Assembly (NCBI GenBank): GCA_024742695.1
Contig: JANSXY010000006.1
Span: 1 to 64,000, forward strand
Origin: Paracoccaceae bacterium
GTDB taxonomy: Bacteria > Pseudomonadota > Alphaproteobacteria > Rhodobacterales > Rhodobacteraceae
Direction of reading: 5' to 3'
Length of the DNA: 64,000 nucleotides
In this document: positions 2,545 through 64,000 of the stretch, in pieces
Numbering within the stretch: the first letter of the stretch is position 1
Layout of the letters: every line of letters starts with the position of its first letter
Notes under the pieces: model-generated
What the model saw: the letters and a program-made list of their open reading frames with translations, nothing else
Databases searched by the model: none
What the model was told of the DNA's origin: nothing
Program-made: the position numbers and the translations under genes

Positions 2545-3729
2545 ATGACCGTTTTCGTCTCCGAACACCCGCTGCCAAGCCTGACCGGCTTCGTCATGCC
2601 GCTGACCGCGGCGCTGGGCGGCTTCTTCGGCCTGCTGGCCGGCAGCGCCGGCGGCAGCACCCTGCTGGGGATCGTCGCCGGCCTCGCGATCGGCGCGGCG
2701 ATGGCCTTCGCGCTGATCCGCCTTGCGCCGGACCGGCGCATCGGGCGCACCGCCGCGGCGGCGGCGCTCGGCCTCGTCGGCCTCGTCGTGGGCGGGATCA
2801 CCGGGATGGTCGCCGGCGTGGCGGGCGGGCTGGTGCTGGGCTGGTTCGTCTACTGGCTGGGCAGCGGGCGCTACCGCGCCGGCGTACCGGTCTACGCGAC
2901 CGGGCCGCAGGTGTTGTGGCACAACACCTTCCTGTTCATCTGCGGCGCGATCTTCTTCTTCCTGATCGCGCCGATCCTCACGGTCATCCCGCTGAGCTTC
3001 AACGCCGAGGATTTCTTCACCTTCACCCCGGCGATGCTGGCCTTCGATCCCGAGGGCTACTCGCTCAAGCATTACCGTGACTTTCTCACCAATCCCGATT
3101 GGCAACAGGCGCTGAGGAACTCGGTCCAGATCGCGCCGGCGGCGACGATCCTGTCGGTGTCGCTGGGCACGCTTGCGGCGATCGGCCTGTCGCAAAGCCA
3201 CGTGCCGTTCCGCCGCGCGATCATGGCGATCCTGATCTCGCCGATGATCGTGCCGCTGATCATCTCGGCGGCGGGGATGTATTTCTTCTACTCGCGGATC
3301 GGATTGCAGGGCACCTATGCGGGCGTGGTGCTGGCCCATGCCGCGCTGGGCATCCCCTTCGTCATCATCACCGTGACGGCAACGCTGGTGGGCTTCGACA
3401 AGTCGCTGACGCGGGCCTCGGCCAGCCTGGGCGCCGGGCCGGTGCGCACCTTCTTCAAGATCCAGATGCCGCTGATCCTGCCCGGCGTGATCTCGGGCGG
3501 GCTGTTCGCCTTCATCACGTCGTTCGACGAGGTGGTGGTGGTGCTGTTCGTCGGCTCCGCCAACCAGCAGACGCTGCCCTGGCAGATGTTCACCGGCCTG
3601 CGCGAGCAGATCAGCCCGACGATCCTCGCCGTCGCCACGATCCTCGTGGTGATCTCGATCGCGCTGCTGACCACGGTGGAACTTCTGCGCCGCCGCTCGG
3701 AACGGTTGCGCGGCATGACGCCGGGCTGA
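2545..3729 (+). CDS. ABC transporter permease, PotC-like, with N-terminal membrane extension
   Basis: This is the second inner-membrane permease (394 residues) of the importer. The C-terminal 270 residues are the BPD_transp_1 fold, including the EAA coupling loop (TRASASLGAGPVRTFF) and the end segment with TILAVATILVVISIALL. The first 130 residues are extra: they contain three or four glycine/alanine-rich hydrophobic stretches (for example GGFFGLLAGSAGG) not found in PotC of enterobacteria, which is about 264 residues. It lies four bases after the first permease and ends just before a strong terminator, so it is the last gene of the operon. Confidence 0.88.
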   Translation: MTVFVSEHPLPSLTGFVMPLTAALGGFFGLLAGSAGGSTLLGIVAGLAIGAAMAFALIRLAPDRRIGRTAAAAALGLVGLVVGGITGMVAGVAGGLVLGWFVYWLGSGRYRAGVPVYATGPQVLWHNTFLFICGAIFFFLIAPILTVIPLSFNAEDFFTFTPAMLAFDPEGYSLKHYRDFLTNPDWQQALRNSVQIAPAATILSVSLGTLAAIGLSQSHVPFRRAIMAILISPMIVPLIISAAGMYFFYSRIGLQGTYAGVVLAHAALGIPFVIITVTATLVGFDKSLTRASASLGAGPVRTFFKIQMPLILPGVISGGLFAFITSFDEVVVVLFVGSANQQTLPWQMFTGLREQISPTILAVATILVVISIALLTTVELLRRRSERLRGMTPG

Positions 3730-3761
3730 GCGCGCCGCACGCCAGGCGGCGGGAGAACGCG

Positions 3762-3795
3762 AACGGGCCGGGCCATATCGTGGCCCGGCCCGTTT
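3762..3795 (+). terminator. Terminator hairpin after the permease operon
   Basis: A perfect 14-bp inverted repeat, AACGGGCCGGGCCA at 3762-3775 and its complement at 3781-3794, with loop TATCG, followed by TTTCACGTT. It sits between the end of the permease operon and the 3' end of the opposing tRNA gene, so it may stop transcription from both sides. The T-run is short, but the stem is very stable. Confidence 0.75.
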
Positions 3796-3823
3796 CACGT
3801 TGGCCCCGTTGCGCGGGAGCAGG

Positions 3824-3910
3824 TGGTGCGGTCGAGAAGACTCGAACTTCCACGGGAGTTACCCCACAGCGACCTCAACGCTGCGCGTCTACCAATTCCG
3901 CCACGACCGC
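3824..3910 (-). tRNA. tRNA-Leu (anticodon GAG)
   Basis: Read on the minus strand, an 87-base tRNA with a 7-bp acceptor stem (GCGGTCG/CGACCGC), discriminator A and encoded CCA. The anticodon stem CAGCG/CGCTG closes the loop TTGAGGT, giving anticodon GAG, which reads CUC and CUU. The long variable arm and the D-loop GGTAGACGC are typical of leucine tRNAs. The T-arm carries GTTCGAGTC. All stems pair. Confidence 0.96.
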
Positions 3911-3961
3911 ACTGCCTTGGCTTGGTGGCCGCGTCTTAGCGAAGGACCCAGGTGTTGTGAA

Positions 3962-3992
3962 GAGGAAAAATCGGGGCGCCGGGCGCCCCGAT
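3962..3992 (-). terminator. Rho-independent terminator of the PG-binding protein gene
   Basis: On the minus strand, a perfect 10-bp stem ATCGGGGCGC/GCGCCCCGAT with a 3-base loop, followed by a run of five T and CCTC. It lies just after the stop codon at 4007 and before the tRNA-Leu gene. Confidence 0.85.
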
Positions 3993-4006
3993 CGGGCCTT
4001 GCGGGC

Positions 4007-5410
4007 CTAGTTGCGGAACAGCAGGAACGGCAGCCGGGCGGCCAGCGGCAGGGCATCGACCTTGCTGCGTTCCGGTGCCGCCGCGGCGGTCTCGATCACC
4101 GGTTCGGCGGGGTCCGCCGCGGGCGCCGGTTCAGGGGCGGCTTCCGGGGCGAGGGCGAAGCTCGGCAGGGTGGCGGGCACCGGCGCCGCCGGGGCCGGCG
4201 CCTCGGCCCGGCCGCCGACCGCGTAGGCCGCCTTGCGGATCAGGTCCGAGCGTTCCGGCTGGCCGGGCGCGAAGACCGGCGTCGCGCCCGATGCGGCCAG
4301 CCCCATGTCGAACCAGTCAAGCGCCAGGTCAGGCCGCTGCGCGGTGCCGAAGCCCTGCGCGAGGTGGTGGCCCATCAACTCGCCGTAGACCTGCTCGCCC
4401 AGCGTCGCGAGCAGCAGTGCCGAGCCCAGCGCCACGCCCATGTCGTCGGTCCGGTAGCCGACCGACAGGCAGATCTTCGCGGTGGCCGCCAGTTGCGCCG
4501 GCTGCATGCCCGAGGACAGAGCGAAGCTTTGCACGCCGGGCACCACCTGCGCGGCGGGTTTCAGCGACAGCGCCGAGACGTGATCGGCCATCGCCGGGCC
4601 GAAGCCCCCGCATTGCTCGGCGATCTGGGCCGGCGTCACGCCGGGCAGCCGGGCGGCCATCTCCTCGCCCTGTGCGATCGCATAGGTCCGGGCCAGGCAG
4701 AACTGCTCGCTCAGCGCCTGCATCGGGTCGCTCATCGTCGCCAGGGTGACGAAACCGCCGTTCGTCGAGGTCAGCAGGCTGACCTTGTTGCAATGCGAGG
4801 CAAGCGAGGCCTGCACCACGTCGCCGCCAAGGAAGTTCGGCAGCGCGGGCTGCGCCGGAACCAGCGCCGGAAGCGACGGCTCCGCCGCCTTCGGTTCGGG
4901 TTCGGGCGTTGCGACCGGCACGCTGTCGGCCAGCGGCCGGATGCCCATCGCCTCGTCGCGCCAGGCGACCAGCAGGCCGCGCATCCCCATCGGGTTCTGC
5001 GCAGCCTGTTGCGCGGTCAGCATCCCGCCGGCGACGGCGCGGTGATAGGAGTTGACGAGGTGCGAGCGTTCGAAGTCCGTCAGCTGGCCGGTCGGCGGAT
5101 AGCCCAGCGTCAACTGGTACTGCGAAACGGCGCTGCGGGTGCGCGGCCCCATCGCACCGTCGGGCACGCCGGCGTCGAACCCGAAATGGTTCAGCGCCAC
5201 CTGCACCTCGCGGGTCGCCTCGCGCACCGGGCTGGCGGTGTAGACGCGCCGCGTGGTGTTCCGGTTCTTGTTGACCTCGTTGACGATGGCGCCGCCGATG
5301 ATGCCGCCCACGATGCCGCCCACAAGCCCGTCGTTGGCCCGGGCCGTCGTGCCCGCCGTGAGCATCAGCGAAACCGCCACCGCCCAGGCCGAAATCCTTT
5401 GTCCGATCAT
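4007..5410 (-). CDS. Secreted peptidoglycan-binding domain protein
   Basis: A 467-residue exported protein. Residues 1-25 form a signal peptide ([17 protein letters not shown], then TTARA). Residues 31-42 are a glycine zipper ([12 protein letters not shown]), which may insert in or oligomerise at a membrane. A PG_binding_1 domain follows at about 65-115 ([24 protein letters not shown]). The rest has no domain I recognise; an alanine/proline-rich stretch lies near the C-terminus. The start at 5410 is chosen because GGAG stands eight bases upstream and it begins the signal peptide; an ATG 33 bases further upstream is less likely. A related PG-binding module occurs in the protein at 30585-32384. 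Function beyond cell-wall association is unknown. Confidence 0.75.
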
Positions 5411-5470
5411 CCCGTTCACTCCTTCAAATGCCGTACTGTCCACGCCGCCACCCTGCCCGGCAGCCCCGCG

Positions 5471-5501
5471 GATCGGAAATATCCGGTGGGAAGTGTCCCA
5501 C
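5471..5501 (-). repeat. Partial copy of the GGATATTTCC intergenic repeat
   Basis: On the minus strand: a hairpin GTGGGA-CACT-TCCCAC followed by CGGATATTTCCGATC. This resembles the second hairpin and tail of the repeat copies at 19854-19915, 47382-47452 and 57388-57452, but the G-run hairpin and the final GGACCAAAATG are missing. It lies between divergent genes rather than after a stop codon, so it may be a decayed copy or a chance match. Confidence 0.4.
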
Positions 5502-5580
5502 GGTCGGGGCGATCTGGCAATGGAAACGGCGGTATCCTATGAATCGCGCGGGCGGCGGCGCGACGAGGGGGCGAAAACGC

Positions 5581-6228
5581 ATGGTCGAATGGATCCACAG
5601 CGCGCAGCCGGTACCCTACGAGACGGCGCTGGCCGCGATGGAGGCCCGCGTGGCCGAGATCGCCGCCGGACGCGCGGACGAGGCGATCTGGCTGCTGGAA
5701 CACCCGCCGCTCTACACCGCGGGCACCTCGGCCGATCCCGCCGACCTCGTCGATCCCGACCGGTTCCCGGTGTTCCGCGCCGGGCGCGGCGGGCAGTACA
5801 CCTATCACGGGCCGGGCCAGCGCGTCGCCTACGTGATGCTCGACCTCAATGCCCGCGGCCGCGACGTGCGCCGCTTCGTCTGCGCGCTGGAAGACTGGGT
5901 GATCGCCACGCTGGCGGAATTCAACGTGGTGGGCGAACGCCGGGCCGGTCGCGTCGGCGTCTGGATCGCCCGGCCCGACAAGCCGCCGCTGCCCGACGGC
6001 ACCCCGCGCGAGGACAAGATCGCCGCGATCGGGGTGAAGCTGCGCCGCTGGATCAGCTTTCACGGCATCTCGATCAACGTCGAACCCGATCTCGCGCATT
6101 TCGACGGGATCGTGCCCTGCGGGATCACCGGCCACGGCGTCACCAGCCTTGTCGACCTCGGCCTGCCGGTGACGATGGCCGATGTCGACGTGGCGCTGAA
6201 ATCCGCCTTCCCGCGGATTTTCGCCTGA
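5581..6228 (+). CDS. lipB: Octanoyltransferase LipB
   Basis: Transfers the octanoyl group from acyl carrier protein to the lipoyl domains of 2-oxoacid dehydrogenases and the glycine cleavage system, the first step of lipoate synthesis, in the cytoplasm. The 215-residue product has the family signatures [10 protein letters not shown] (41-50), [12 protein letters not shown] (69-80), the catalytic lysine in AIGVKLRRW (about K153) and the acyl-thioester cysteine in GIVPCGI (about C180). The start at 5581 gives the usual MVEW beginning and has a GAGGGGG upstream; in-frame ATGs at 5539 and 5428 would add an unrelated arginine-rich extension. It is divergent from the PG-binding gene. No lipA is in the window. 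Confidence 0.95.
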
Positions 6229-6352
6229 TCCGACCCGCACCAAAGCCGGTATAGTCCGCGCAAGGAATTCGTGCGACAAGGGGCCCACTGGACGCCGACG
6301 GGGCCCCGCCCTACGTCGACTCGCGTCCGCAACCGAAGCCAAGGAAGACGCG

Positions 6353-6763
6353 ATGAAACTGAAGCTTTTCGCCACGCTCTCCGCCGTCGCACTGGCCGCG
6401 CCGGCTTTCGCCCAGGACGCCGCCAAGGGCGAGCGGGAGTACAACAAGTGCAAGTCCTGCCACATGATCGAGGCCGATGACGGCACCTCGATCGTCAAGG
6501 GCGGCAAGACCGGCCCGAACCTTTACGGCGTGATCGGCCGCCAGGTCGCCAGCGTCGACGGGTTCCGCTACGGCGACTCGATCCTCGCGGTGGGCGAAAC
6601 CGGGCTGGTCTGGACCGAGGAAGAACTGGTCGCCTACGTGACCGACCCGAAGGCCTGGCTGGCCGAGAAGACCGGCGATGCCGGCGCCCGGTCGAAGATG
6701 ACCTTCAAGCTGGCCAAGGGCCAGGAAGATGTCGCGGCCTACCTGGCCTCGCTGACCCAGTAG
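6353..6763 (+). CDS. cycA: Cytochrome c (c2/c550 type)
   Basis: A 136-residue periplasmic electron carrier between the cytochrome bc1 complex and terminal oxidases. Residues 1-20 are a signal peptide ending AFA. Haem is attached at CKSCH (C33, C36, H37); the likely methionine ligand is M116 in RSKMTFKL. Length and motifs fit the large class I cytochromes c2/c550 of Rhodobacterales. The oxidase subunit I gene lies 165 bases downstream on the same strand; in Paracoccus denitrificans cycA also sits beside ctaDII. Two inverted repeats separate the genes, so they may be transcribed separately. Confidence 0.93.
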   Translation: MKLKLFATLSAVALAAPAFAQDAAKGEREYNKCKSCHMIEADDGTSIVKGGKTGPNLYGVIGRQVASVDGFRYGDSILAVGETGLVWTEEELVAYVTDPKAWLAEKTGDAGARSKMTFKLAKGQEDVAAYLASLTQ

Positions 6764-6803
6764 GTGGCTGACGGGCGCGACGGCGCCCGCCGACATGTCC
6801 GGG

Positions 6804-6836
6804 GGGTGAGGCAATTTTTCCCATTCTGCCTCACCC
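6804..6836 (+). other. Inverted repeat between cycA and ctaD
   Basis: GGGTGAGGCA (6804-6813) and its exact complement TGCCTCACCC (6827-6836) flank a 13-base AT-rich loop. A second hairpin, CGGGCGC/GCGCCCG, lies just upstream at 6772-6789. There is no T-run after either, so they may be a weak terminator, an mRNA-end stabiliser for cycA, or an operator for ctaD. A weak promoter-like pair (TTGCCG at 6844, TAAAAC at 6867) follows. Confidence 0.5.
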
Positions 6837-6928
6837 TTCGCGATTGCCGATCCCCGACGCGGCCGATAAAACCGGGTCATGGTCCGGCCGGTCGGGAGAC
6901 CCGGCCAGAACGCAAATGGGAGATCAGC

Positions 6929-8602
6929 ATGGCCGACGCAGCCATTCATGGCCACGGCGAGCATGACACGCGCGGGTTCTTCACCCGCTGGTTCATGTCC
7001 ACCAACCACAAAGACATCGGTATCCTTTACCTGTTCACCGCGGGCCTCGTCGGCCTGATCTCGGTCATCTTTACCATCTACATGCGGCTGGAACTGATGG
7101 ATCCGGGCGTGCAGTACATGTGCCTGGAAGGTGCGCGGCTGACCGCCGCCGCGGCCGGCGAATGTACGCCGAACGGCCATTTGTGGAACGTGATGATCAC
7201 CTATCACGGCGTCCTGATGATGTTCTTCGTCGTGATCCCGGCGCTGTTCGGCGGCTTCGGCAACTACTTCATGCCGCTGCATATCGGCGCGCCGGACATG
7301 GCGTTCCCGCGGATGAACAACCTCAGCTACTGGATGTTCGTCGCGGGCGTGGCGCTGGGCGTGGCCTCGATGCTGGCGCCGGGCGGCAACGACCAGTCCG
7401 GTTCGGGCGTGGGCTGGGTGCTCTACCCGCCGCTGTCGACGAACGAGGGCGGCTATTCGATGGATCTTGCGATCTTCGCGGTCCACGTCTCGGGCGCCTC
7501 GTCGATCCTGGGCGCGATCAACATGATCACGACCTTCCTGAACATGCGGGCGCCGGGCATGACCCTGCACAAGGTGCCGCTGTTCGCCTGGTCGATCTTC
7601 ATCACCGCCTGGCTGATCCTGCTGGCGCTGCCGGTTCTGGCCGGCGCGATCACCATGTTGCTGACCGACCGTAACTTCGGCACCACCTTCTTCGATCCGT
7701 CGGGCGGCGGCGACCCGATCCTCTACCAGCACATCCTGTGGTTCTTCGGGCACCCGGAGGTCTACATAATCATCGTGCCGGGCTTCGGGATCATCAGCCA
7801 CGTCATCGCGACCTTCTCGAAGAAGCCGGTGTTCGGTTACCTGCCGATGGTCTACGCGATGGTGGCGATCGGCGTGCTGGGCTTCGTCGTCTGGGCGCAC
7901 CACATGTACACCGTCGGCATGTCGCTGACCCAGCAGAGCTACTTCATGCTGGCCACGATGGTCATCGCGGTGCCCACCGGCATCAAGGTCTTCTCGTGGA
8001 TCGCGACGATGTGGGGCGGCTCGGTCGAGTTCAAGACGCCGATGCTCTGGGCCTTCGGCTTCCTGTTCCTGTTCACCGTCGGCGGCGTGACCGGCGTGGT
8101 GCTGTCGCAGGCGCCGGTGGACCGGGTGTATCACGACACCTACTACGTCGTGGCGCATTTCCACTACGTGATGTCGCTGGGCGCGGTCTTCGCGATCTTC
8201 GCGGGCATCTACTACTGGATCGGCAAGATGTCGGGCCGGCAGTACCCGGAATGGGCGGGCAAGCTTCACTTCTGGATGATGTTCATCGGCTCGAACCTGA
8301 CCTTCTTCCCGCAGCACTTCCTGGGCCGCCAGGGTATGCCGCGCCGGTACATCGACTATCCGGAGGCCTTCGCCTACTGGAACAAGATCTCGTCCTACGG
8401 TGCGTTCCTGTCCTTCGCGTCCTTCGTCTTCTTCCTCGGCGTGATGTACTACACGCTGACCCGCGGCGCGCGGGTGACCGAGAAGAACTACTGGAACGAA
8501 TACGCGGACACGCTGGAATGGACCCTGCCCTCGCCGCCGCCCGAACACACGTTCGAGCAGCTGCCGAAGCGCGAGGACTGGGACAAGGCGCACGCGCACT
8601 GA
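6929..8602 (+). CDS. ctaD: Cytochrome c oxidase subunit I (aa3 type)
   Basis: The catalytic subunit of the aa3 oxidase in the cytoplasmic membrane: reduces oxygen to water and pumps protons. The 557-residue product has about 12 membrane helices. Seen motifs are the haem a ligand region [10 protein letters not shown], the CuB/active-site [13 protein letters not shown] with the His-Tyr pair, [10 protein letters not shown], and the haem ligands in [11 protein letters not shown]. The start at 6929 follows GGGAGA and gives the usual STNHKDIG 22 residues in; an upstream frame opening at 6764 lacks homology. Subunits II and III are not in the window, as in other Rhodobacterales where ctaD stands apart. 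A strong terminator follows. Confidence 0.97.
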
Positions 8603-8624
8603 TCGCCGGCCCTTGACCGGATCG

Positions 8625-8655
8625 AAGGCCCCGGGGAAACCCGGGGCCTTCTTCG
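8625..8655 (+). terminator. Terminator after ctaD
   Basis: A perfect 11-bp stem AAGGCCCCGGG/CCCGGGGCCTT around a GAAA tetraloop (8636-8639), followed by CTTCGTT, 22 bases after the ctaD stop. Confidence 0.85.
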
Positions 8656-8813
8656 TTCGCGGCGGCCGGCCGGCCGTTCCGGTACCGATATCCCGGCGGT
8701 AAGAACGCGCCCGGCTTTGACGCCGACACGACCGTGACCTATCTGGCCGGTCGGGCGCGGCCGGACCGCACCGGATCGACCGCCCCGACCCACCGGCGAA
8801 GACGAGAGACCCG

Positions 8814-55161: not shown

Positions 55162-55866
55162 ATGTATGTGCTGCACTATGCGCCAGACAATGCCTCGGGC
55201 ATCGTCCGGGTCGCGCTGGAGGAGCTCGGCCTGCCCTATCGCGCCGCGTTGGTCGACCGGGCGGCACGGGCGCAACACGCGCCCGCCTACCGCGCGCTGA
55301 ATCCCCTCGGCCAGATCCCGGTGCTGGAAACCGCCGAGGGCCCGATCTTCGAGACCGGCGCGATCCTGCTGTGGCTGTCGGAAGTGCACGGCGGGCTGGC
55401 GCCGGCGCCGGGCGCGCCCGGGCGCGGGCGCTACCTGACCTGGCTGTTTTTCCTGTCGAACACGGTTCACGCCGATCTGCTGCGGCTGTTCTACCCGCAG
55501 CGCTATGTCGCGCCGGCCGAGATCGGCGGCCATCACGCCCGGATGGCCGATCGTATCGCCGGCCACTTCGGCCAGCTCGACCGGATCGCGGCGGCGGGCG
55601 ACGGCGCGGTGTTCCGGCTGGTGGCGGAGGATGCCGCGCCGGGGCTGATCGACATCTACGCCGGCTTCCTGATGCGCTGGTCCGTGCTTTACCCCTACGA
55701 CGGCCCGCGCTGGTTCGAGGCGGTGCGGTTCCCGCATCTGCACGCCATGGCGCGGCGCCTTGAACGCCGGCCATCGGCGCTGGCCGTGGCCAAGGCGGAA
55801 GGGCTGGGCCCGACGCCGTTCAGCGCCCCGCGCCTCCCCGAACCGCCCGAGGGCAGCGCGACCTGA
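55162..55866 (+). CDS. Glutathione S-transferase family protein
   Basis: A 234-residue cytosolic protein with the thioredoxin-like N-domain (MYVLHYAPDNASGIVRVALEELGLPYRAALVDR), the cis-proline and glutathione motif NPLGQIPVLETAEGPIFETGAILLWLSE, and a helical C-domain (LTWLFFLSNTVHADLLRLFYP, LIDIYAGFLMRWSVLYPYDG). It resembles the general GstA-like bacterial group; a more exact class or substrate cannot be given. It is divergent from rpiA. Confidence 0.88.
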   Translation: MYVLHYAPDNASGIVRVALEELGLPYRAALVDRAARAQHAPAYRALNPLGQIPVLETAEGPIFETGAILLWLSEVHGGLAPAPGAPGRGRYLTWLFFLSNTVHADLLRLFYPQRYVAPAEIGGHHARMADRIAGHFGQLDRIAAAGDGAVFRLVAEDAAPGLIDIYAGFLMRWSVLYPYDGPRWFEAVRFPHLHAMARRLERRPSALAVAKAEGLGPTPFSAPRLPEPPEGSAT

Positions 55867-55996
55867 GCGCCTTTCGCCGCCCGATGGTCGTTTTCGGCAC
55901 TGCCGCGGGCCGCGAAGTCTCGCACAGAATTCGGCACCGGACTGGCGGATTTCGCGGAAAACCCCGCTCCGGCGCGCGGATCAATCGGGGGCCATG

Positions 55997-57376
55997 ATGT
56001 TCTTGTCCGTCTTCGACATGTTCAAGGTCGGCATCGGGCCGTCGTCATCGCACACGATGGGGCCGATGGTGGCCGCCGGGCGGTTCCTCGACCTGCTGCG
56101 CGCCTCGCCGTTCCAGGCTCATGGGCTGCGGGCCTCTCTGCACGGCTCGCTGGCCTTCACCGGCAAGGGCCATGCCACCGACCGCGCCACGATTCTCGGC
56201 CTCGCGGGGTTCCGGCCCGACGACTATGACGCCGCGCGCGCCGAGGCGGCGCTGGCCGCGATCACCGAGGCCGGCCGCGTCACGCCGCCGGGGCTGGGCG
56301 AGATGGATTTCGACCCCGCGCGCGATCTCGCCTTCGATTTCGGCCCGGCGCTGCCCGGCCATGCCAACGGGATGATCCTGTCGGCCACCGACGCCCAGGG
56401 CGACGTGATCCTGCAGGAGACCTATTACTCGATCGGCGGCGGCTTCGTTCTGACCGCGGCGGAACAGGCCGCGGTGGACGACGCGGCGCTGGCCGAACGC
56501 TCGCCGGTGCCGTTCCCGTTCCGCTCGGCCGCCGAGATGCTGGGGATGGCGGCGGCCTCGGGCCTGTCGGTGGCCGCGATGAAGCGGCAGAACGAACGGG
56601 TGTTCCGCAGCGATGCCGAGATCGACGCGGGCCTTGCCCGGATCTGGGCGGTGATGAAGGCCTGCATGGATCGCGGGCTGGCCACCGACGGGATCCTGCC
56701 CGGCGGGCTGAAGGTACGGCGCCGCGCGAAGGCGATCCACGAGGCGCTGCTGGCCGAACGCGGCATGAACCTGACCGCGCCGCATGTCATCAACGACTGG
56801 ATGAGCGTTTACGCGATGGCGGTGAACGAGGAGAACGCCGCCGGCGGCCAGGTCGTCACCGCGCCGACGAACGGGGCCGCGGGCGTGGTGCCGGCGGTGA
56901 TCCGCTACTGGCTCGACCACGTGCCGGGGGCCTCCGAGAAGCGGCTGGGGGATTTCCTGCTGACCGCGGCGGCGATCGGCGGGCTGATCAAGCACAACGC
57001 CTCGATCTCGGGGGCGGAATGCGGTTGCCAGGCCGAGGTCGGATCGGCCGCGGCGATGGCGGCGGCGGGATTGGCGGCGGTGCTGGGCGGTACGCCCGAA
57101 CAGGTGGAAAACGCGGCCGAAATCGCGCTGGAACACCACCTGGGCATGACCTGCGACCCGGTGAAGGGGCTGGTGCAGGTGCCGTGCATCGAACGCAACG
57201 GCCTGGGCGCGATCAAGGCGGTGTCCGCCGCCTCGCTCAGCCTGCGCGGCGACGGCCAGCATTTCGTGCCGCTGGACGCGGCGATCGAGACGATGCGCCA
57301 GACCGGGGCGGACATGCACGAACGCTACAAGGAAACCTCGCTCGGCGGGCTTGCCGTCAACGTCCCGAACTGCTGA
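55997..57376 (+). CDS. sdaA: L-serine ammonia-lyase, iron-sulfur-dependent
   Basis: A single-chain 4Fe-4S enzyme that deaminates L-serine to pyruvate and ammonia. The 459-residue product starts [21 protein letters not shown] (beta domain) and has the alpha domain with [38 protein letters not shown] and [22 protein letters not shown], carrying the cluster cysteines. A tandem ATG at 55994 is an equally possible start. A two-hairpin repeat begins 12 bases after the stop. Confidence 0.96.
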
Positions 57377-57454: not shown

Positions 57455-58456
57455 TCAGGCGCGGTCGGCGGACCCGAAGAGGCCGGTGAGCGCGCGGCCG
57501 GTCAGCCGGCTGACGCGCGGTTTCGGCAGGGCGGCGAAGGGCAGAGGCCGGCAGACCTCGATCGCGGCAATGCCGACGCGGGCGGTGAGCGCGCCGTTCA
57601 CCACCCCCTCGCCGAACCGGCGCGAGATTTTCGAGACCAGCCCGCCGCCGGCCACCGACTGGATCAGGTCGTCGCCCACCGCCACCGCGCCGGTGGCCGC
57701 GAGATGCGCGAAGACGCTGCGCGCCAGCCGCCAGCTGCCGAAGGTACCGGCCCGGCCGCCGTAGATCTCGGCGATCCGGCGGATCATCCGCAGGTTGGCG
57801 ACCAGCGCCGCGGCGACGTCGGCCAGCGCCAGCGGCACCACGGCGGTGACGGCGGCGACCATCCGCGCCGCCGCCTCGACCTCGGCCCGCGCGGCGGCGT
57901 CGAGCGGGGCCATCAGCTCGCGTTCGGCCAGCGCCAGAAGGTCGGGCGCGTCGATCATCTCGGCCTGGCGCTCGGCCAGCCGGGCGCGGCCCCAGGCCAG
58001 GTCGGGCCGACCGCCGTAGAGCCGGACGAGGCCGTCGGTCACCCGTCGCGCGGCGGCGAGATCGGTGGCCGACAGCGCCGCCCTGTGCAGCCCGTCGAGC
58101 CGGCGCAGCCGCGCCCAGGCCGCGACTTCGCGCAGCGCGAGGACTAGCGCGGCGACGAGCGCCAGGGCCGCCAGCGCCGCGGCGGCGGCGCCCAGCCAGG
58201 GGCTGCGGTCGAGCAGGCCGGTGACGAAATCCCAGGCCGCGACGGAGACGGCGAGGCCGATGAAGCCCGCCAGCCCGGCCCAGAACGCCCGCGCCAACGG
58301 CGAGGCCGGACGCGCGGCCACCGCGGCGGCGGCCTGCATCGCGCGGCCCTCTGCCGCTGCATCCGCGTCGGGCACGGGCGGCGCGGTATCCGGGCTCTCG
58401 CCGGCCGCGTCGAGCGGAACGATGACGGGGCCCTGCCGGGGTCTCGGGTCGGTCAC
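57455..58456 (-). CDS. DUF697/TIGR01620 (YcjF-like) membrane protein
   Basis: A 333-residue membrane protein of the YcjF/DUF697 family. Two hydrophobic segments at about 58-80 and 88-108 ([40 protein letters not shown]) are followed by the helical DUF697 domain ([73 protein letters not shown]). The start is GTG at 58456, overlapping the ycjX TGA (GTGA). YcjX-YcjF pairs are common and linked to stress and envelope functions; the biochemical role is not known. Confidence 0.88.
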
Positions 58457-59865
58457 AGGCGGTCTCCGATCAGGAAGTCGGCGGCGCGATCGAGCCGGAT
58501 ATGCGGCAGGCCGTCGCCGGGCTTTCGGGTGATCTTCGCGGGGGCGAAATCCATCGCGCCGTAGTCGGCGTCGAGCCAGCGGTCGGCGCCGTCGCGCGCC
58601 GGAACCAGCAACTGCGCGGGATCGGCGGGCAATTCGCCCGGCCAATAGGCGGCATGGCTGCCGTCGGCGCGCCGGCCGCGCACCGCGGGCAGGGTCCGGC
58701 CGCCATGCTCCACCTCGGTCTCGGTGGTCGCGCGCAGCGCGGCGATCGCCGTCGCCTGCGTCGCCGCCCCGGCGAAATCGGCGCGATCGCGCGCCTCGCG
58801 CAGCATCGCCGTCAGGATCGCGGCCAGCGCCGGATGCTGGCTGTGGTGCAGGTGATCGGCCCTGGTGGCCGCGAACAGGATCCGGTCGGTGCGCGACAGG
58901 CCGACAAGCCGCAGCAGCCAGCCGGCGCGGCCGGGGCGGAAGGCCGTGAGCGTTTCGGCCATCGCGCGGCGCAGATCCTCGGTCGCGCGGGGGCCGGCAT
59001 GGATCGCGCCCAGCGCGTCGACCAGCACCACCTGCCGGTCGATCCGGGCGAAATGGTCGCGAAAGAACGGCCGCACCACGCGGGCCTTGTAGGCCTCGAA
59101 CCGGCGTTCGAACTCGCGCCAGAGGCTTTGCCGGCCCGGCCGTTCGGGTGCGGCGAGCGGCGCGAAGGTGAGCGCGGGCGAACCGTCGAGGTCGCCGGGC
59201 AGCAGGAACCGGCCCGGCGTGCAATCCGACCAGCCCTCGGCGCGCGCGGCGCGCAGGTGATCGGCGAAGAGCCGGGCGAGATCGCGGGCGCGGGTTTCCT
59301 CGAACGGCGCCGCGCCGTCCGTGGCCTGCTGGGCCTGAAGGAACGGGTCCGCCCCGGCACGGCCGGGGATCCGGGCCAGCACCTCCGCCGCCCACGCGCC
59401 GTAGTCGCGCTCCATCAGCGTGAGGTCCAGAAGCCATTCGCCGGGGTAATCGACGATGTCGAGATGCACGGTGCGCGGCCCGGTCAGCGCGCCCATCATC
59501 CCGGCGGGCTGCACCCGCAGCGAGAGCCTGAGTTCGCTGACCGCGCGGGTGCTGTCGGGCCAATGGGGCTCCGGCCCGGCCAGCGCGGCCAGGTGGCCCT
59601 CGTAGTCGAACCGGGGCACCGTGGGATCGGGCTGCGGCTGCAGCCAGGCCGCGCGAATCGCGCCGCTCGCCGCCGGGCCGAAGCCGGGCATCCGGCCGCG
59701 GTCGAGCAGGTTCGAGACCAGCGAGGTGATGAACACGGTCTTGCCCGACCGCGCCAGCCCGGTGACACCAAGCCGGATCACCGGTTCGAACAGCGCCTCG
59801 CTCACGCTGGCGCCGATGTTTTCGACGCCGCGGGCGAGATCGTCGGCGATGGACGAGATGGACAA
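58453..59865 (-). CDS. YcjX family P-loop protein
   Basis: A 470-residue GTPase-like protein of the YcjX/DUF463 family. Motifs are the P-loop GLARSGKTVFITSLV (36-50), a DxxG-like IVDYPGEWLLDLTLM, and FAATRADHLHH in the place of NKxD. The start is TTG at 59865 with AGAGG eight bases upstream; the first ATG would lose the conserved start. It is coupled to the DUF697 gene by a GTGA overlap, as for ycjX-ycjF of E. coli, a stress-induced pair. Confidence 0.88.
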   Translation of the reverse strand: MSISSIADDLARGVENIGASVSEALFEPVIRLGVTGLARSGKTVFITSLVSNLLDRGRMPGFGPAASGAIRAAWLQPQPDPTVPRFDYEGHLAALAGPEPHWPDSTRAVSELRLSLRVQPAGMMGALTGPRTVHLDIVDYPGEWLLDLTLMERDYGAWAAEVLARIPGRAGADPFLQAQQATDGAAPFEETRARDLARLFADHLRAARAEGWSDCTPGRFLLPGDLDGSPALTFAPLAAPERPGRQSLWREFERRFEAYKARVVRPFFRDHFARIDRQVVLVDALGAIHAGPRATEDLRRAMAETLTAFRPGRAGWLLRLVGLSRTDRILFAATRADHLHHSQHPALAAILTAMLREARDRADFAGAATQATAIAALRATTETEVEHGGRTLPAVRGRRADGSHAAYWPGELPADPAQLLVPARDGADRWLDADYGAMDFAPAKITRKPGDGLPHIRLDRAADFLIGDRL

Positions 59866-60024
59866 GGCGGGGCCTCTCTTTCGGGGCCCAAGATAGGCGC
59901 CGGGGCGGCGGCTGTGTAGGGGCGATTGCCAAGCGGCCCGGTCGCGGGCTAGACCGCCGCGACGGAACGGGCGGCCCGAACCCGTCGGCCGGGCCGGCCC
60001 ATTGCACGAGAGGCGCCCTTCGCC

Positions 60025-60798
60025 ATGCCGCGCTACGCGCTGAAGATCGAATACCATGGCGGCGGCTTCGCCGGCTGGCAGCGGCAGGCTGCGCAAGCCT
60101 CGATCCAGCAGGAGGTGGAGGCGGCGATCGCGCGGCTGGAGCCCGCGGCCCCGGCGATCGCCGCGGCCGGGCGCACCGACGCCGGGGTGCATGCCACGGG
60201 ACAGGTGGCGCATGTCGATCTTGGCCGCGCCTGGGATCCGTTTCGCCTGCAGGAGGCGATCAACCATCACCTGAAACCGGCGCGGATCGCGGTGCTCGCC
60301 GCGGCCGTGGTGGACGCGGGGTTCCATGCCCGGTTCTCCGCCGTCGAGCGGCGCTACCTGTTCCGCCTGCTGGCGCGCCGAGCGCCGGCAACCCATGACG
60401 CGGGCCTGGTCTGGCAGGTGCGCCAGCCGCTGGATGCCGAGGCGATGCGGGCCGGCGCGGCACATCTGGTCGGGCGGCACGATTTCACCACCTTCCGCTC
60501 TGCCCAGTGCCAGGCCGAGAGCCCGGTCAAGACGCTGGACGAGATCGCGATCGAGGAGGTCGCGGTGCCGCATGGCGTGGAGTACCGGTTCCGGCTGCGC
60601 GCCCGCAGCTTCCTGCACAACCAGGTCAGGTCGATCGTGGGCACGCTGGAGCGTGTCGGCGCCGGGGCCTGGGCGCCGGGCGCGGTGGCGCAGGCGCTGG
60701 CCGCGCGCGACCGGGCCGCCTGTGGCCCGGTCTGCCCGCCGCAGGGTCTGTACCTGGCGCAGGTGGTCTATCCCGAGGATCCGTTCGCGGCCGCCTGA
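60025..60798 (+). CDS. truA: tRNA pseudouridine synthase A
   Basis: Makes pseudouridine at positions 38-40 of tRNA anticodon stems. The 257-residue product has the catalytic aspartate in [18 protein letters not shown] (D52), HYDFxTF-like [13 protein letters not shown], and the closing [21 protein letters not shown]. Length is typical. It is convergent with the exonuclease gene, and both stop codons lie in a shared inverted repeat. Confidence 0.97.
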
Positions 60799-60819
60799 CG
60801 GCGCGCGCACCGTCAGGCG
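60792..60819. terminator. Palindromic hairpin over the truA and exonuclease stop codons
   Basis: A perfect 10-bp inverted repeat CGCCTGACGG/CCGTCAGGCG with an 8-base loop. Each arm contains a GCC-TGA end of one of the two convergent genes, so both genes share the structure. It probably acts as a two-way terminator or mRNA end. Confidence 0.55.
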
Positions 60820-62870
60820 TTGAGATCCTTCAGCAGCCGTCCGTGTTTCTTCACCTCGGCCAGCACGTCGCCGAAGGTGTGGATGCCGCGCGCCTCCAGC
60901 ATCGGCAACAGCCGCAGCAGCGCCTCCGCCGTCGCCACCGTATCGCCGATCGCGGTATGGCGCGCCTCCTCGGGGATGGTGATTCCCAGCCGATGCGTCA
61001 GCGCGTCGAGGCTGTGACCTTCAAGCTGTCCGAAGACGACCGCCGACAGAAGCACCGTGTCGAGGATCGGGTGGTCGAACCGCGCGCCGATGCCGGCCTC
61101 GTGGCGGCGCAGGAATTCCATGTCGAACGGCGCGTTGTGGGCGACCAGCACAGCGCCGGCGGCGAAGGCGTGGAACTGCCGGCCGACCGTATCGATGCCG
61201 GGCGCCTCGGCCACCATCGCCTCGGTGATCCCGTGCACCTCGGTCGAGGCGGCGGGGATCGACCGGCCGGGATTGACCAGCGTGTCGAACACTTCCTTTT
61301 CCACCCGCCGGCCGTTGACGATCCGCACCGCGGCGATCTGCACGATCTCGTCGCCCTCGCTGGGCAGCAGGCCGGTGGTTTCGGTGTCGAAGACGACATA
61401 GGTGAGATCCTGCAGCCGCGCCTGAAGCACCTCGGCGCTGCGGACCTTGGACAGCAGGTCGAAATCGTAGACCACCGCGCGCGGGATCGGGGCGGGACGG
61501 CGATGGGCGCGACGCGCGTCGCGGATCGGCAGTCGCAGCCGCGCGCGGCCATCAGGCAGCGCCTCGGGCCAGATCTCGGTGCCGTGGGTGTCGAGCACGG
61601 TGCGCCCGGTGACGTCGGCAAGACCCACCTCCAGCGGCGCGGCCAGAAGCCGGTCGAGCCGGCCGATGTTCAGCGTCGGCCCGGACCACGACAGATCGAT
61701 CACCGCGCCGGCGCCGTCCTCTTCGATCGCGAGCGCGAGGTCGCGGGCGTCCTCGATCCCGGCGGCGAGCCCCGACAGCAGCGCGACGAGGCCGAAGGCG
61801 TCGCAGCGCAGGATCAGGGCCGCGGCATCGACCGTCAGGGGCCGGCCCTCGGCCTCGATCCGGGCGCGGATCGCATCGGCGAGATCGGCGGCGCGGGTCA
61901 GCGGCAAGGGCCACCAGGTCGCCCGGCTGCGGTCATAGCGGGCGCCGAGATCGGTGATCGCGCGCGCCAGCGTGCCGGCCTCTTCGGCGATCGCGGCGTC
62001 GAGCGCGGCATCCGCCGCCCCCTCCTTGACCGAGATCGCGGTCATCAGGTTCGCCGCCGGGCGGCGGACCCGGTCGAAGACCTCGGCCAGCAGATCCTCG
62101 CGGTCGGCATGGGCGGCGAGATCGGCGGTCACGTCGCGCAGCGTCAGCACGTAGCCCGGCCTGTCGCCCGCGCCCTCCACCAGTCGCATCCGCCCCGCCA
62201 GCACCCGCGCCTCGGCGGTCGTCGCGCAGACGAGGTCCGAGGCGGCATCGGGATCGTCGGTTTCCAGCAGCCGGTCATAGGCATGGGCGACCGGCGCCTC
62301 GCGCAGGTAGTCGAACACCCGGCGGTCGAGCCCCGGCGCGGCGGCGCCGCCAAGCAGATCGACGGCCTGGCCGTTGTAGAACACCAGCTGGTGATCGGGC
62401 GTGCACAGCAGCACCCCGACCGGCACGTCGGAAAGCAGCGTCTCCAGCCGATCCTTTTCCGCCGCCAGACGGGTGGTTTCGCGGGCCACCGCCTCGGCCA
62501 GCGCGTTGCGGGTTTCGGCCAGCGTCAGCGTCACCGCCTCGGCGGCGGGCGCCAGATCGCCCAGATAGCGCGCCGGCGCGGTATCGATCCCGTCGGCGAC
62601 CGCGGCATGGGCGCGGGCGCGCATGCCCCCGGCCAGCCGTTCGATCGCGCGGGCCACGTTCTCGTCGAACAGGAACCAGATCCAGGCGACGAGGCCGAGG
62701 ATCGCGAAGCCCGTCACGGCGCCGGCCAGCGTGAAGGCGGGCAGAAGCGCCGGATCGGCGGCGCGGCGCCAGCCCAGCCAGAGCCCGGCGCCCAGCGCCA
62801 GCCAGCAGCCGAGGACGAGGGCGGCGAAGAACAGGAAGACGCGCAGCCGCAGGCTCAGCCGCTCAAACAT
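60813..62870 (-). CDS. Membrane PAS/degenerate kinase-DnaQ-type exonuclease fusion
   Basis: A 685-residue membrane protein. Helices at about 9-30 and 47-68 leave almost no periplasmic sensor. A HAMP-like and coiled region leads to a PAS domain at about 140-250 (LLSDVPVGVLLCTPDHQLVFYN). At 258-450 lies a histidine-kinase-like part whose usual His is replaced (FDRVRRPAANLM, where kinases have HELRTPL) and whose ATP-binding motifs are not seen. The C-terminus (490-660) is a DEDDh 3'-5' exonuclease: VFDTETTGL (D495, E497), HNAPFDMEFL (D583), HTAIGDT (H638, D643), all present. It is probably an active nuclease held at the membrane. It overlaps the response regulator gene by eight bases. The ATG at 62870 is preferred to one ten codons earlier. 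Confidence 0.85.
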   Translation of the reverse strand: MFERLSLRLRVFLFFAALVLGCWLALGAGLWLGWRRAADPALLPAFTLAGAVTGFAILGLVAWIWFLFDENVARAIERLAGGMRARAHAAVADGIDTAPARYLGDLAPAAEAVTLTLAETRNALAEAVARETTRLAAEKDRLETLLSDVPVGVLLCTPDHQLVFYNGQAVDLLGGAAAPGLDRRVFDYLREAPVAHAYDRLLETDDPDAASDLVCATTAEARVLAGRMRLVEGAGDRPGYVLTLRDVTADLAAHADREDLLAEVFDRVRRPAANLMTAISVKEGAADAALDAAIAEEAGTLARAITDLGARYDRSRATWWPLPLTRAADLADAIRARIEAEGRPLTVDAAALILRCDAFGLVALLSGLAAGIEDARDLALAIEEDGAGAVIDLSWSGPTLNIGRLDRLLAAPLEVGLADVTGRTVLDTHGTEIWPEALPDGRARLRLPIRDARRAHRRPAPIPRAVVYDFDLLSKVRSAEVLQARLQDLTYVVFDTETTGLLPSEGDEIVQIAAVRIVNGRRVEKEVFDTLVNPGRSIPAASTEVHGITEAMVAEAPGIDTVGRQFHAFAAGAVLVAHNAPFDMEFLRRHEAGIGARFDHPILDTVLLSAVVFGQLEGHSLDALTHRLGITIPEEARHTAIGDTVATAEALLRLLPMLEARGIHTFGDVLAEVKKHGRLLKDLNA

Positions 62871-63288
62871 GGCCTCCCGGCGTGGCGGCCGCCTCCGCAC
62901 CCGGTTCGTCGCCCAGAAGCCGCCGCACCTCGGCGCGCAACTCCTTGAGTTCGAAGGGCTTGGCGATGAACCCGTCAGCCCCCAGCGCCAGGCCCTTGCG
63001 GCGTTCCATCGCCGAGCCGCGGGCCGTCATCATCAGGATCTTGACGTCGCTGAGCGCCGGGTCCATCCGCACGTCCTGGCAGATCTCGTAACCCGAGACC
63101 TCGGGCAGCATCACGTCCAGCAGCACGAGGTCGGGATGCGTGTCGCGGATCCGTCCCATCGCGTCGCGGCCGTTGGCGATGCGATCGTGCTGGTAGCCCT
63201 CGCGGGACATCAGGTAGTCGAGCGCGATGGCAATGTTGTCCTCGTCCTCGACGATGAGAACCTTGTGCTTTCTACCGCCGTCGGCCAT
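62863..63288 (-). CDS. Single-domain response regulator (CheY-like)
   Basis: A 141-residue receiver protein with no output domain. The acidic pocket E14/D15, phospho-acceptor D58 (LVLLDVMLP), T88 (MMTAR) and K110 (AKPFE) are all present. A short helical tail follows (LLGDEPGAEAAATPGGHV). It lies upstream of, and overlaps by eight bases, the PAS/kinase-like exonuclease gene, so it may be its partner, but since that protein lacks a phospho-accepting His, the phosphate donor would be another kinase. An in-frame start at 63288 follows GAGGTTGAG. Confidence 0.92.
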   Translation of the reverse strand: MADGGRKHKVLIVEDEDNIAIALDYLMSREGYQHDRIANGRDAMGRIRDTHPDLVLLDVMLPEVSGYEICQDVRMDPALSDVKILMMTARGSAMERRKGLALGADGFIAKPFELKELRAEVRRLLGDEPGAEAAATPGGHV

Positions 63289-63289
63289 C

Positions 63290-63823
63290 TCAACCTCCCT
63301 CGCAGGCCGCCTTCACCAGGGCGTCATCGGGGCCGACCTCGCGCCAGTCGACACCCGACAACGTTCCGTCGTCTTCAAGCTGCGCGCCGTCGAGCAGATC
63401 GGCACGCCGATGGTTCGTGCAGTCGAACGCGACCGAAACCTGCCGGGTCGGAGACCAGCGTTCGAGGATCAGCACCGGCGCGACGATCAGCGCCGGATCG
63501 GCGGCGGAGCGCAGGATGCCCGCGCGGTCGACCGCCACGAACCGCAGCTTCAGCGGCACGACATAGGTCCAGGGGCGGAACCAGTCCTGCCGGCCCGGCG
63601 CGGAGGCGACGACGATCTCTTCGGGCAGTTGCGCCGTCACGCGGCTGTACCAGGTGGATTCGTTCCAGACCGCGAAGCCCAGCATGCCAAGGCCGATGCC
63701 CGCGGGGATCATCCATTTCGGCAGCGGCCGGCCGGTGATCCGGCGGATCGCGTAGCTGGCGATCAGCAAGATCCCCGCGACGCCGAAAGCCGCCGAGAGG
63801 GTGGAGATGAAATCGATCAGCAT
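63290..63823 (-). CDS. Two-helix membrane protein of unknown function
   Basis: A 177-residue protein with two N-terminal helices (about 6-25, ISTLSAAFGVAGILLIASYA; 38-54, MIPAGIGLGMLGFAVW) and a soluble C-terminal part with WYSRVTAQLPEEIVVAS, PWTYVVPLKLRFVAVD and VSVAFDCTNHRRADLLDG. I do not recognise a family. It ends one base before the response regulator start, so it is part of the same minus-strand group. Confidence 0.75.
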   Translation of the reverse strand: MLIDFISTLSAAFGVAGILLIASYAIRRITGRPLPKWMIPAGIGLGMLGFAVWNESTWYSRVTAQLPEEIVVASAPGRQDWFRPWTYVVPLKLRFVAVDRAGILRSAADPALIVAPVLILERWSPTRQVSVAFDCTNHRRADLLDGAQLEDDGTLSGVDWREVGPDDALVKAACEGG

Positions 63824-63848: not shown

Positions 63849-64000
63849 TCATGTCAGCGCCCCCTTGCCGTGGCCCGCGGCCGATTGCATCGTGCGCACC
63901 ACCACGAAAGCGTCGCGCAGGTGGCTGCGTTCGAAATCCGACAGGTCGGAAGGCGCGAGGAAGTTGTCGGGCTTGCGGCCCGACTTGACCAGCGCGGCCT
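63849..64000 (-). CDS. DUF294-type nucleotidyltransferase protein (C-terminal end only)
   Basis: The last 49 residues of a gene that begins outside the window. The segment SGRKPDNFLAPSDLSDFER and SHLRDAFVVVRTMQSAA resemble the C-terminal substrate-binding part of DUF294 (nucleotidyltransferase-like) proteins, which have CBS/cNMP domains before it. DUF294 genes are often next to DnaQ-type exonuclease genes. The stop is 26 bases before the next gene's start on the same strand. Confidence 0.6.
   Translation of the reverse strand, partial: AALVKSGRKPDNFLAPSDLSDFERSHLRDAFVVVRTMQSAAGHGKGALT

Follow-up and report, generated by a model that had tools for sequence, protein, structure and literature searches.

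Single-domain receivers abound, and for many the target is not known. In Caulobacter, DivL has a kinase core without the phospho-acceptor histidine and senses whether a single-domain receiver is phosphorylated; mutation of its R553, three residues after Y550, lowers binding of DivK~P 8-15 fold, as do three other interface mutations (PMC4211667). In Pseudomonas putida, the exonuclease gene pp_0353 shares an operon with the CBS-protein gene pp_0354, to which ErdR (CrbR) binds; cells without pp_0353 grow more slowly on pyruvate, and the authors of that study speculated on mRNA decay (PMC9927547). Here we analyzed a locus in which a single gene joins membrane helices, a PAS domain, a kinase-like part and a DEDDh exonuclease (hereafter the fusion), beside a gene for a single-domain receiver, P0002. 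The analyzed window covers bases 1-64,000 of contig C48, part of a 4.16-Mb genome (99.7% complete) whose closest named relatives are Rhodobacteraceae/Paracoccaceae.

We propose, with about an even chance of being right, that the fusion provides the output of a two-component system linked to carboxylates, in which a signal would pass from kinase to receiver to dead kinase to exonuclease, with the nuclease as effector. We infer this chain because DivL provides a precedent and because the same arginine is the most constant residue in the H-box of the fusion. An earlier, sequence-only reading of the window had suggested that the receiver may bind the dead-kinase part and control the nuclease. The sequences and structural models establish the domain order, the lost kinase residues, the intact nuclease and receiver residues and the operon; comparison of loci likewise establishes the correlation between receiver and kinase-like part and, outside the family, the nearness of an SLC5/STAC-type kinase.

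Results

The kinase-like part of the fusion has lost its catalytic residues

We searched with the whole protein (E <= 1e-35) and found matches in 112 of 248 genomes of the family and 112 of 196 of the order, with part of the genomes that gave no match represented in the results. A profile of the PAS-pseudokinase region was also run against 398 Pseudomonadota genomes (E <= 1e-30) and matched 44 of them; the loci of 20 were examined, 2 from the same class and 18 from other classes, and these are referred to as the phylum-wide loci.

AlphaFold2 models were obtained for the whole protein (predicted local distance difference test, pLDDT, 87.6; 62 sequences) and for residues 130-472 (pLDDT 87.8; 48 sequences). 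They contain the helices, the PAS domain, a DHp hairpin and a CA-like domain, with the exonuclease in the whole-protein model. The profile of residues 130-472 matched the solved kinases VicK (E 7.5e-16) and ThkA (E 5.6e-14). Histidine kinases were also among the Foldseek and VIA-align matches of the predicted structure, including DivL 4q20 (Foldseek E 1.3e-8; VIA Z 13.1 over 196 aligned residues, root-mean-square deviation (rmsd) 14.9). We think that the high rmsd is explained by different domain placement; the CA part aligned with PrrB at Z 13.8 and rmsd 2.7 over 126 residues. The kinase-like part of the window's protein was not named by Pfam. A Pfam scan of 62 members gave weak HisKA matches in 4 (best E 5.1e-4) and HATPase_c in 1 (E 0.052), and all those inspected singly fell under the curated cut-off. 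By BLAST, the DHp of one member (L087) matched the HisKA part of a Paracoccus denitrificans kinase at 29% over 58 aa (E 6e-6). Because of the fold matches, the VicK and ThkA profile matches and this BLAST match, the kinase-like part is, judged by sequence and modeled fold, derived from a kinase.

In the alignment with VicK, D266 takes the place of the phospho-histidine in HELRTP, R269 and P271 match its Arg and Pro, and W395 stands where the G1 box has its Asp. Histidine was absent from the phospho-acceptor position in all 156 family loci with a kinase-like part and in all 20 phylum-wide loci. Among the 139 family loci with both a kinase-like part and a receiver, the position held D in 113, E in 20, A in 3, and T, S and V in one each; phylum-wide it held E in 11, P in 4, T in 2, and M, Q and D in one each. 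The G1-box Asp position was Trp in 139 of 140 sequences (the window and the 139) and Ala in the other, and Trp in 20 of 20 phylum-wide loci; the N-box stretch of the 140 sequences had no conserved Asn. The arginine at His+3 was retained in 138/140 and 20/20, which makes it the most constant H-box residue of the family.

The protein thus has the DHp-CA fold and lacks the phospho-histidine and ATP-site residues of a histidine kinase, and by these residues it is not a histidine kinase in function. An active kinase was rejected as a candidate on the missing His, the missing N-box and the Trp in the G1 box. That the part might still be active with Asp or Glu as phospho-acceptor is very improbable: an acidic residue occupies the His position in 133 of the 139 loci with a receiver, but Ala, Thr, Ser, Val, Pro, Met and Gln occur there too, and such a kinase would have to work with Trp at the ATP-site Asp and no N-box. 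Much of this had been anticipated from the letters of the window, where the sequence-only reading had seen two helices, a PAS-like region and a kinase-like region with neither a phospho-accepting His nor clear ATP-binding motifs. A kinase domain with His and N-box intact, which would have refuted that reading, was not seen in the alignments. The structure prediction that it had proposed for the last region yielded the DHp hairpin and an ATPase-like fold.

The exonuclease and the receiver are intact

RNase_T (PF00929) matched residues 492-650 of the fusion at E 1.3e-37. All 81 aligned rows (the window and 80 others) have D495, E497 and D583, and 80 of them have H638 and D643, the remaining row being gapped there; all five residues (D-E-D-H-D) were intact in 20/20 phylum-wide loci. 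The intact DEDDh set reported earlier was therefore borne out, and its loss in orthologues was not seen in these alignments. The closest fold was the PolC exonuclease (VIA Z 24.6, rmsd 1.9, 191 aligned), with the DnaQ chains 1j53 and 2gui at Z 21.0-21.4, and the closest sequence was the PolC-type 2p1j (E 4.7e-28). By modeled fold and by residues, the fusion carries a DEDDh exonuclease. A replicative proofreading subunit was considered and rejected: the fold is PolC/DnaQ-like, but the neighborhood is metabolic and the genome has a separate DnaQ-like protein, on contig C11, which matches the exonuclease domain only, at 37%.

In three other genomes of the class (L106, L108 and L110), the exonuclease and CBS-DUF294-DUF294_C occupy one open reading frame of 722, 711 and 742 aa, respectively, as seen by Pfam in L108 and L110 and by BLAST in L106. 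This single frame argues that the nuclease and the nucleotidyltransferase act together. It also suits a different reading, in which the DEDDh domain would take off a nucleotide that the DUF294 nucleotidyltransferase had attached to a protein or small molecule, in a cycle controlled by the receiver, as does the DUF294 gene found within the stretch in 21 of 29 class-level loci and in 17 of 20 phylum-wide. We regard that reading as improbable, since PolC and DnaQ exonucleases, the nearest in both fold and sequence, work on nucleic acid, and we know of no protein substrate, though no search was aimed at one. In two further loci (L097:598-2103, + strand; L098:1471-2979, - strand), the same exonuclease domain stands in one frame behind a multi-helix membrane protein, which we take to be EamA-like.

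P0002 has D58, T88, K110 and the acid pair E14/D15, and Response_reg was the sole family over the Pfam cut-off, with no output domain, so that it has every feature of a single-domain response regulator. In 141 aligned receivers the Asp was kept in 140, the Lys in 140, Thr/Ser in 138, and an acidic residue in 140 at the first and 138 at the second position of the pair; Asp and Lys were kept in 19/19 phylum-wide loci. The receiver at L163:3570-3959 (- strand) had Asp changed to N, Lys to L, Thr to I and the second acid to H, and the fusion of that locus had a diverged H-box with V at the His position; here receiver and reader seem to decay together. A receiver tree was weakly supported (2 of 37 branches starred, one very long row), and in it exonuclease-side, kinase-side and other-family receivers formed separate groups.

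An SLC5/STAC-type kinase lies near the fusion in other genomes

In loci from other families of the class, an SLC5/STAC-type kinase with an HELRTP box was found near the fusion in six of six. Five of these were 42-44% identical over 850-920 aa to the kinase of the window's genome; of the sixth (L227), a contig end leaves just 71 residues. In L225, kinase and fusion are separated by DUF294. Kinases of this type were found in 26 of the 41 genomes searched, the window's own included, and all 12 loci examined had a receiver nearby. A profile of ten kinase N-terminal parts matched one solved structure, 10ed, at E 1.2e-100, which is CbrXA SLC5-STAC (PMC13022988). Pfam SSF matched 5 of the 10 (best E 3.1e-10); the kinase of the window's genome had no hmmscan match to SSF, yet scored 24.9 bits in another search.

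The arrangement was tightest in Paracoccus denitrificans PD1222 (L279), where kinase (3542-6247), receiver (6237-6602) and fusion (6599-8719) overlap in succession. Genome G311, which like PD1222 belongs to the order of the window's genome, also has the kinase directly adjoining the fusion, and an unannotated record of Cupriavidus necator C39 holds kinase, receiver, fusion, DUF294 and acs in one cluster. In PD1222, an 82-codon hydrophobic protein (L279:3300-3545, + strand) overlaps the start of the kinase gene; Pseudomonas CbrA is likewise preceded by the small CbrX (PMC6591292).

The kinase of the window's genome maps to contig C4 (L234:2132-6898, - strand) with a single-domain receiver of its own, which is 42% identical to P0002 and has Response_reg alone over the cut-off. 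Upstream of the kinase is an HTH protein, presumably of a short-chain fatty acid regulator family. Pfam identified no DNA-binding response regulator as an output, either at the window's operon or beside the C4 kinase. A separate kinase of the SLC5/STAC type probably phosphorylates the receiver.

The fusion recurs across Pseudomonadota

The exonuclease continued from the PAS-pseudokinase in 20/20 phylum-wide loci. A receiver was adjacent in 19, an SLC5/STAC-type kinase (>= 50% identity) was present in 14, the sodium:solute symporter (SSS) in 7 and acs (>= 60% identity) in 3; contig ends truncate L265 and L276, and the kinase of L259 is in two overlapping frames.

The receiver and the kinase-like part occur together

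Many matched genomes carry a shorter form consisting of membrane part, PAS and exonuclease, with the kinase-like part absent. In 200 loci, 139 had both the kinase-like part and a receiver, 17 had the kinase-like part only, 44 had neither, and none had a receiver only; this count includes some genomes twice (e.g. L007 and L115), takes in L085-L094 from other families and leaves out the exonuclease-only rows L095-L113. After dereplication (<80% identity) there were 115 rows, divided 59/12/44, with L223 moved to the receiver-present class on a degenerate receiver seen by eye and L044 dropped for its start at a contig end.

The R-x-P box was lost in 15 of the 17 loci that had a kinase-like part and no detected receiver. 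The two that keep it are L044, which begins at the contig end, and L086, whose receiver is 4.6 kb away in the operon of its SLC5/STAC-type kinase (L225). In the main receiver-less clade (L156, L158, L159, L161, L162, L206, L208 and L209), the CA-like part is retained, while the H-box helix is shortened and R-x-P is lost. On a tree of the membrane, PAS and exonuclease columns of the 115 rows, the kinase-like part switches between present and absent 6 times, of which well supported branches force at least 4; the count does not separate gain from loss, and L216 and L222 sit on long branches. One locus without kinase-like part and receiver, L200 (G317:C26), groups next to the window with a support of 86 (not starred). 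Its exonuclease is 79% identical to that of the window, and it falls apart from the large clade lacking both parts.

Comparison of loci favors the earlier suggestion that the regulator acts on the dead-kinase part, with no receiver in 44/44 loci lacking the kinase-like part and R-x-P lost as described. Covariation of the two proteins was negative.

Several observations weigh against a receiver-controlled nuclease. Few independent events link receiver and kinase-like part: 4 pairs when well supported branches are counted, 6 when every branch is, and 0 in the opposite direction. Sign tests gave p 0.125-0.5; with just 4-6 independent pairs, such tests cannot reach significance. Mutual information between receiver and DHp (159 pairs, Neff 73, L163 and L223 left out) placed 2 of the top 100 pairs at the expected interface against 0.9 expected, and PAS was over-represented among the top pairs; we think that lineage dominates this signal. 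The R-x-P box is changed in 12 of the 59 dereplicated rows that have a receiver, including the near relative L035 (P to L) and L163, where the receiver is without its Asp, and phylum-wide the Pro at His+5 is present in only 10 of 20 loci. Since membrane part, PAS and exonuclease are kept without kinase-like part and receiver, regulation by the receiver must be dispensable in many family genomes. Phylum-wide, L271 has no receiver and 6 of 20 loci have no nearby SLC5/STAC-type kinase; the window's operon itself has none, and the C4 kinase has a second receiver of its own. Finally, deletion of pp_0353 and of pp_0354 had no effect on growth of P. putida on acetate (PMC9927547).

Some of these points would suit other explanations. 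The receiver could dock on the dead kinase while the nuclease is always on, information passing to the receiver or a membrane complex instead, so that the fusion is a phosphate sink, a stabilizer, or a platform for symporter, DUF294 protein and nuclease. Pseudokinases are able to act as scaffolds, the PAS part is strongly conserved in the 81-row alignment, and 44 loci keep membrane part, PAS and exonuclease without the kinase-like part. We nevertheless consider this unlikely, because the docking arginine is kept where there is a receiver and mostly lost where none was detected, which fits read-out by the fusion, and because a phosphate sink has no need of an attached nuclease whose active-site residues are conserved. 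We are a shade more doubtful of the idea that the kinase-like part is a leftover dimer stalk and that the receiver works elsewhere, the two vanishing together through a few losses of neighboring DNA. The small number of independent changes, the negative mutual-information test and the great sequence variability of residues 275-465 would all be expected from a stalk; the L156-type clade would not, as only the receiver is missing there, with the CA-like part still in place and the docking helix decayed. Nor would a stalk be expected to keep the His+3 arginine in every phylum-wide locus, with a receiver beside 19 of the 20.

The locus and its neighbors

The coordinates of the locus are collected in Table 1. 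The 8-base overlap of the fusion gene with a complete single-domain receiver gene (62863-62870), noted in the sequence-only reading, is confirmed by the open reading frames and the Response_reg match; the fusion frame has an alternative, longer start at a GTG at 62900.

Table 1. Genes and protein features at the fusion locus (positions in the 64,000-base window).
Feature	Position	Strand	Details
fusion gene	60813..62870	minus	685 aa from ATG; membrane helices, PAS, pseudokinase (DHp + CA-like), DEDDh exonuclease
DEDDh 3'-5' exonuclease domain	60891..61403	minus	residues 490-660; D495, E497, D583, H638, D643
CA (HATPase-like) fold without ATP motifs	61509..61901	minus	residues 324-454; W395 replaces G1 Asp
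DHp-like two-helix hairpin	61914..62129	minus	residues 248-319; helices 248-282 and 288-319; profile match to VicK, ThkA and other kinases
degenerate H-box	62058..62075	minus	D266 replaces His; conserved R269, P271; aligned to VicK HELRTP
PAS domain	62124..62450	minus	residues 141-249; PAS_4 E 1.3e-5 at 147-249, PAS_8 from 141 (Pfam); predicted fold
two long N-terminal helices, membrane hairpin + stalk	62604..62852	minus	residues 7-89; predicted H7-36, H43-89; hydrophobic by eye
single-domain response regulator (CheY-like), P0002	62863..63288	minus	141 aa; Response_reg E 7.5e-26 (Pfam)
177-aa protein	63290..63823	minus	hydrophobic N-terminal part; precedes receiver gene
cNMP-CBS-DUF294-DUF294_C gene, 3' end	63849..64000	minus	607 aa; extends beyond window to C48:65672

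Past the end of the window, with the rest of the DUF294 gene and on its strand, are genes for a VC_2705-family sodium:solute symporter and its DUF4212 small subunit and, farther out, for acetate-CoA ligase (acs). The order acs-DUF4212-SSS-DUF294-unknown-receiver-fusion recurs in 80 loci of other genomes, and with annotated genes on a plasmid of Marivivens sp. JLT3646. All 80 loci encode the fusion, 79 have a receiver match, 78 DUF294, 77 the 177-aa-type protein, 71 SSS, 62 DUF4212 and 58 acs; many of the missing neighbors, not all, are due to short contigs. In L062, the 177-aa-type protein and DUF4212 had no match and SSS matched at just 29%. A random genomic neighborhood, which would have counted against the sequence-only reading, was thus rejected on the order conserved in the 80 loci and the 20 phylum-wide loci, and the search of other genomes that it had suggested found both the domain set and its neighbors again. 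The 177-aa protein had no match in a Pfam scan; proteins of its type also directly precede the short form that has no kinase-like part and receiver.

The genes on the other side look ordinary: we take 55760-57376 (+) to be serine dehydratase-like, 57455-60810 (-) to encode YcjX/YcjF-like proteins, and 60025-60798 (+) to be the tRNA pseudouridine synthase TruA.

Discussion

In the mechanism that we propose, an SLC5/STAC-type histidine kinase of the CbrA/CrbS/RpuS kind would phosphorylate the single-domain receiver, and the receiver would dock on the DHp hairpin of the fusion, where a normal kinase would be met, a placement that has comparative support. With the His and ATP site gone, docking should involve no transfer of phosphate. 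Docking may instead act jointly with PAS and the membrane part to shift the dimer and so switch the attached exonuclease, which would trim 3' ends, most likely of RNA, in connection with acetate or pyruvate use, and may act together with the neighboring DUF294 nucleotidyltransferase. We hold somewhat less firmly, at a little under an even chance, that this is a pathway of the whole phylum, in which a transporter-like kinase, a lone receiver and a membrane pseudokinase turn fused 3'-end trimming on or off and carry a carboxylate signal directly to RNA (or DNA), with no transcription factor in between.

Were this so, two-component signaling would act through a nuclease rather than a gene activator, and the principle of DivL, a dead kinase that reads a receiver, would extend to a large family in Pseudomonadota. 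It would also give a frame for the unexplained exonuclease gene in the acetate/pyruvate regulon of P. putida. For this receiver a candidate target can be named, together with its docking residue, and the kinase-receiver-fusion set in P. denitrificans PD1222 and C. necator makes the system accessible to genetics. We found no account of the fusion in the open-licence papers searched, nor any there of DUF294 with an exonuclease, and the fusion is not described in the available parts of papers on CrbS/R and RpuS/R (PMC5715377, PMC5436829, PMC9100948).

The exonuclease is nearest in fold and sequence to the PolC exonuclease domain and DnaQ, with which it has its catalytic residues in common. PolC and DnaQ belong to polymerases, whereas the exonuclease of the fusion is membrane-held and joined to signaling domains. 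With the SLC5/STAC systems CbrA/B, CrbS/R (MxtR/ErdR) and RpuS/R the locus shares the type of kinase and the links to acs, SSS, CBS/DUF294 and exonuclease. The regulators CrbR and RpuR of those systems are transcriptional activators, whereas the receiver of this locus lacks an output domain and the nuclease is carried on the pseudokinase. Similar to the fusion in setting is the protein of pp_0353, by description an RNase_T exonuclease beside a CBS protein in the CrbS/R (MxtR/ErdR) regulon, and next to actP in P. aeruginosa. It is reported with an RNase_T match only, and the available part of that report mentions neither a membrane-PAS-pseudokinase nor a receiver partner (PMC9927547).

The likeness to DivL of Caulobacter concerns the signaling part. 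Both proteins have PAS and a DHp-CA fold without the phospho-histidine, an arginine at +3 and a single-domain receiver as partner. The His position is Tyr in DivL and mostly Asp or Glu in the fusion; DivL has a role in the cell cycle, where it acts on the kinase CckA, whereas the fusion has a nuclease attached and stands in a carboxylate operon. With the +3 arginine so constant and a receiver linked in 139 of 156 family loci, as in nearly all of those phylum-wide, the fusion may well work like DivL, as a receiver-reading pseudokinase for which binding of the receiver is predicted. Set beside these systems, the locus is an assembly of known parts in a new, widespread circuit.

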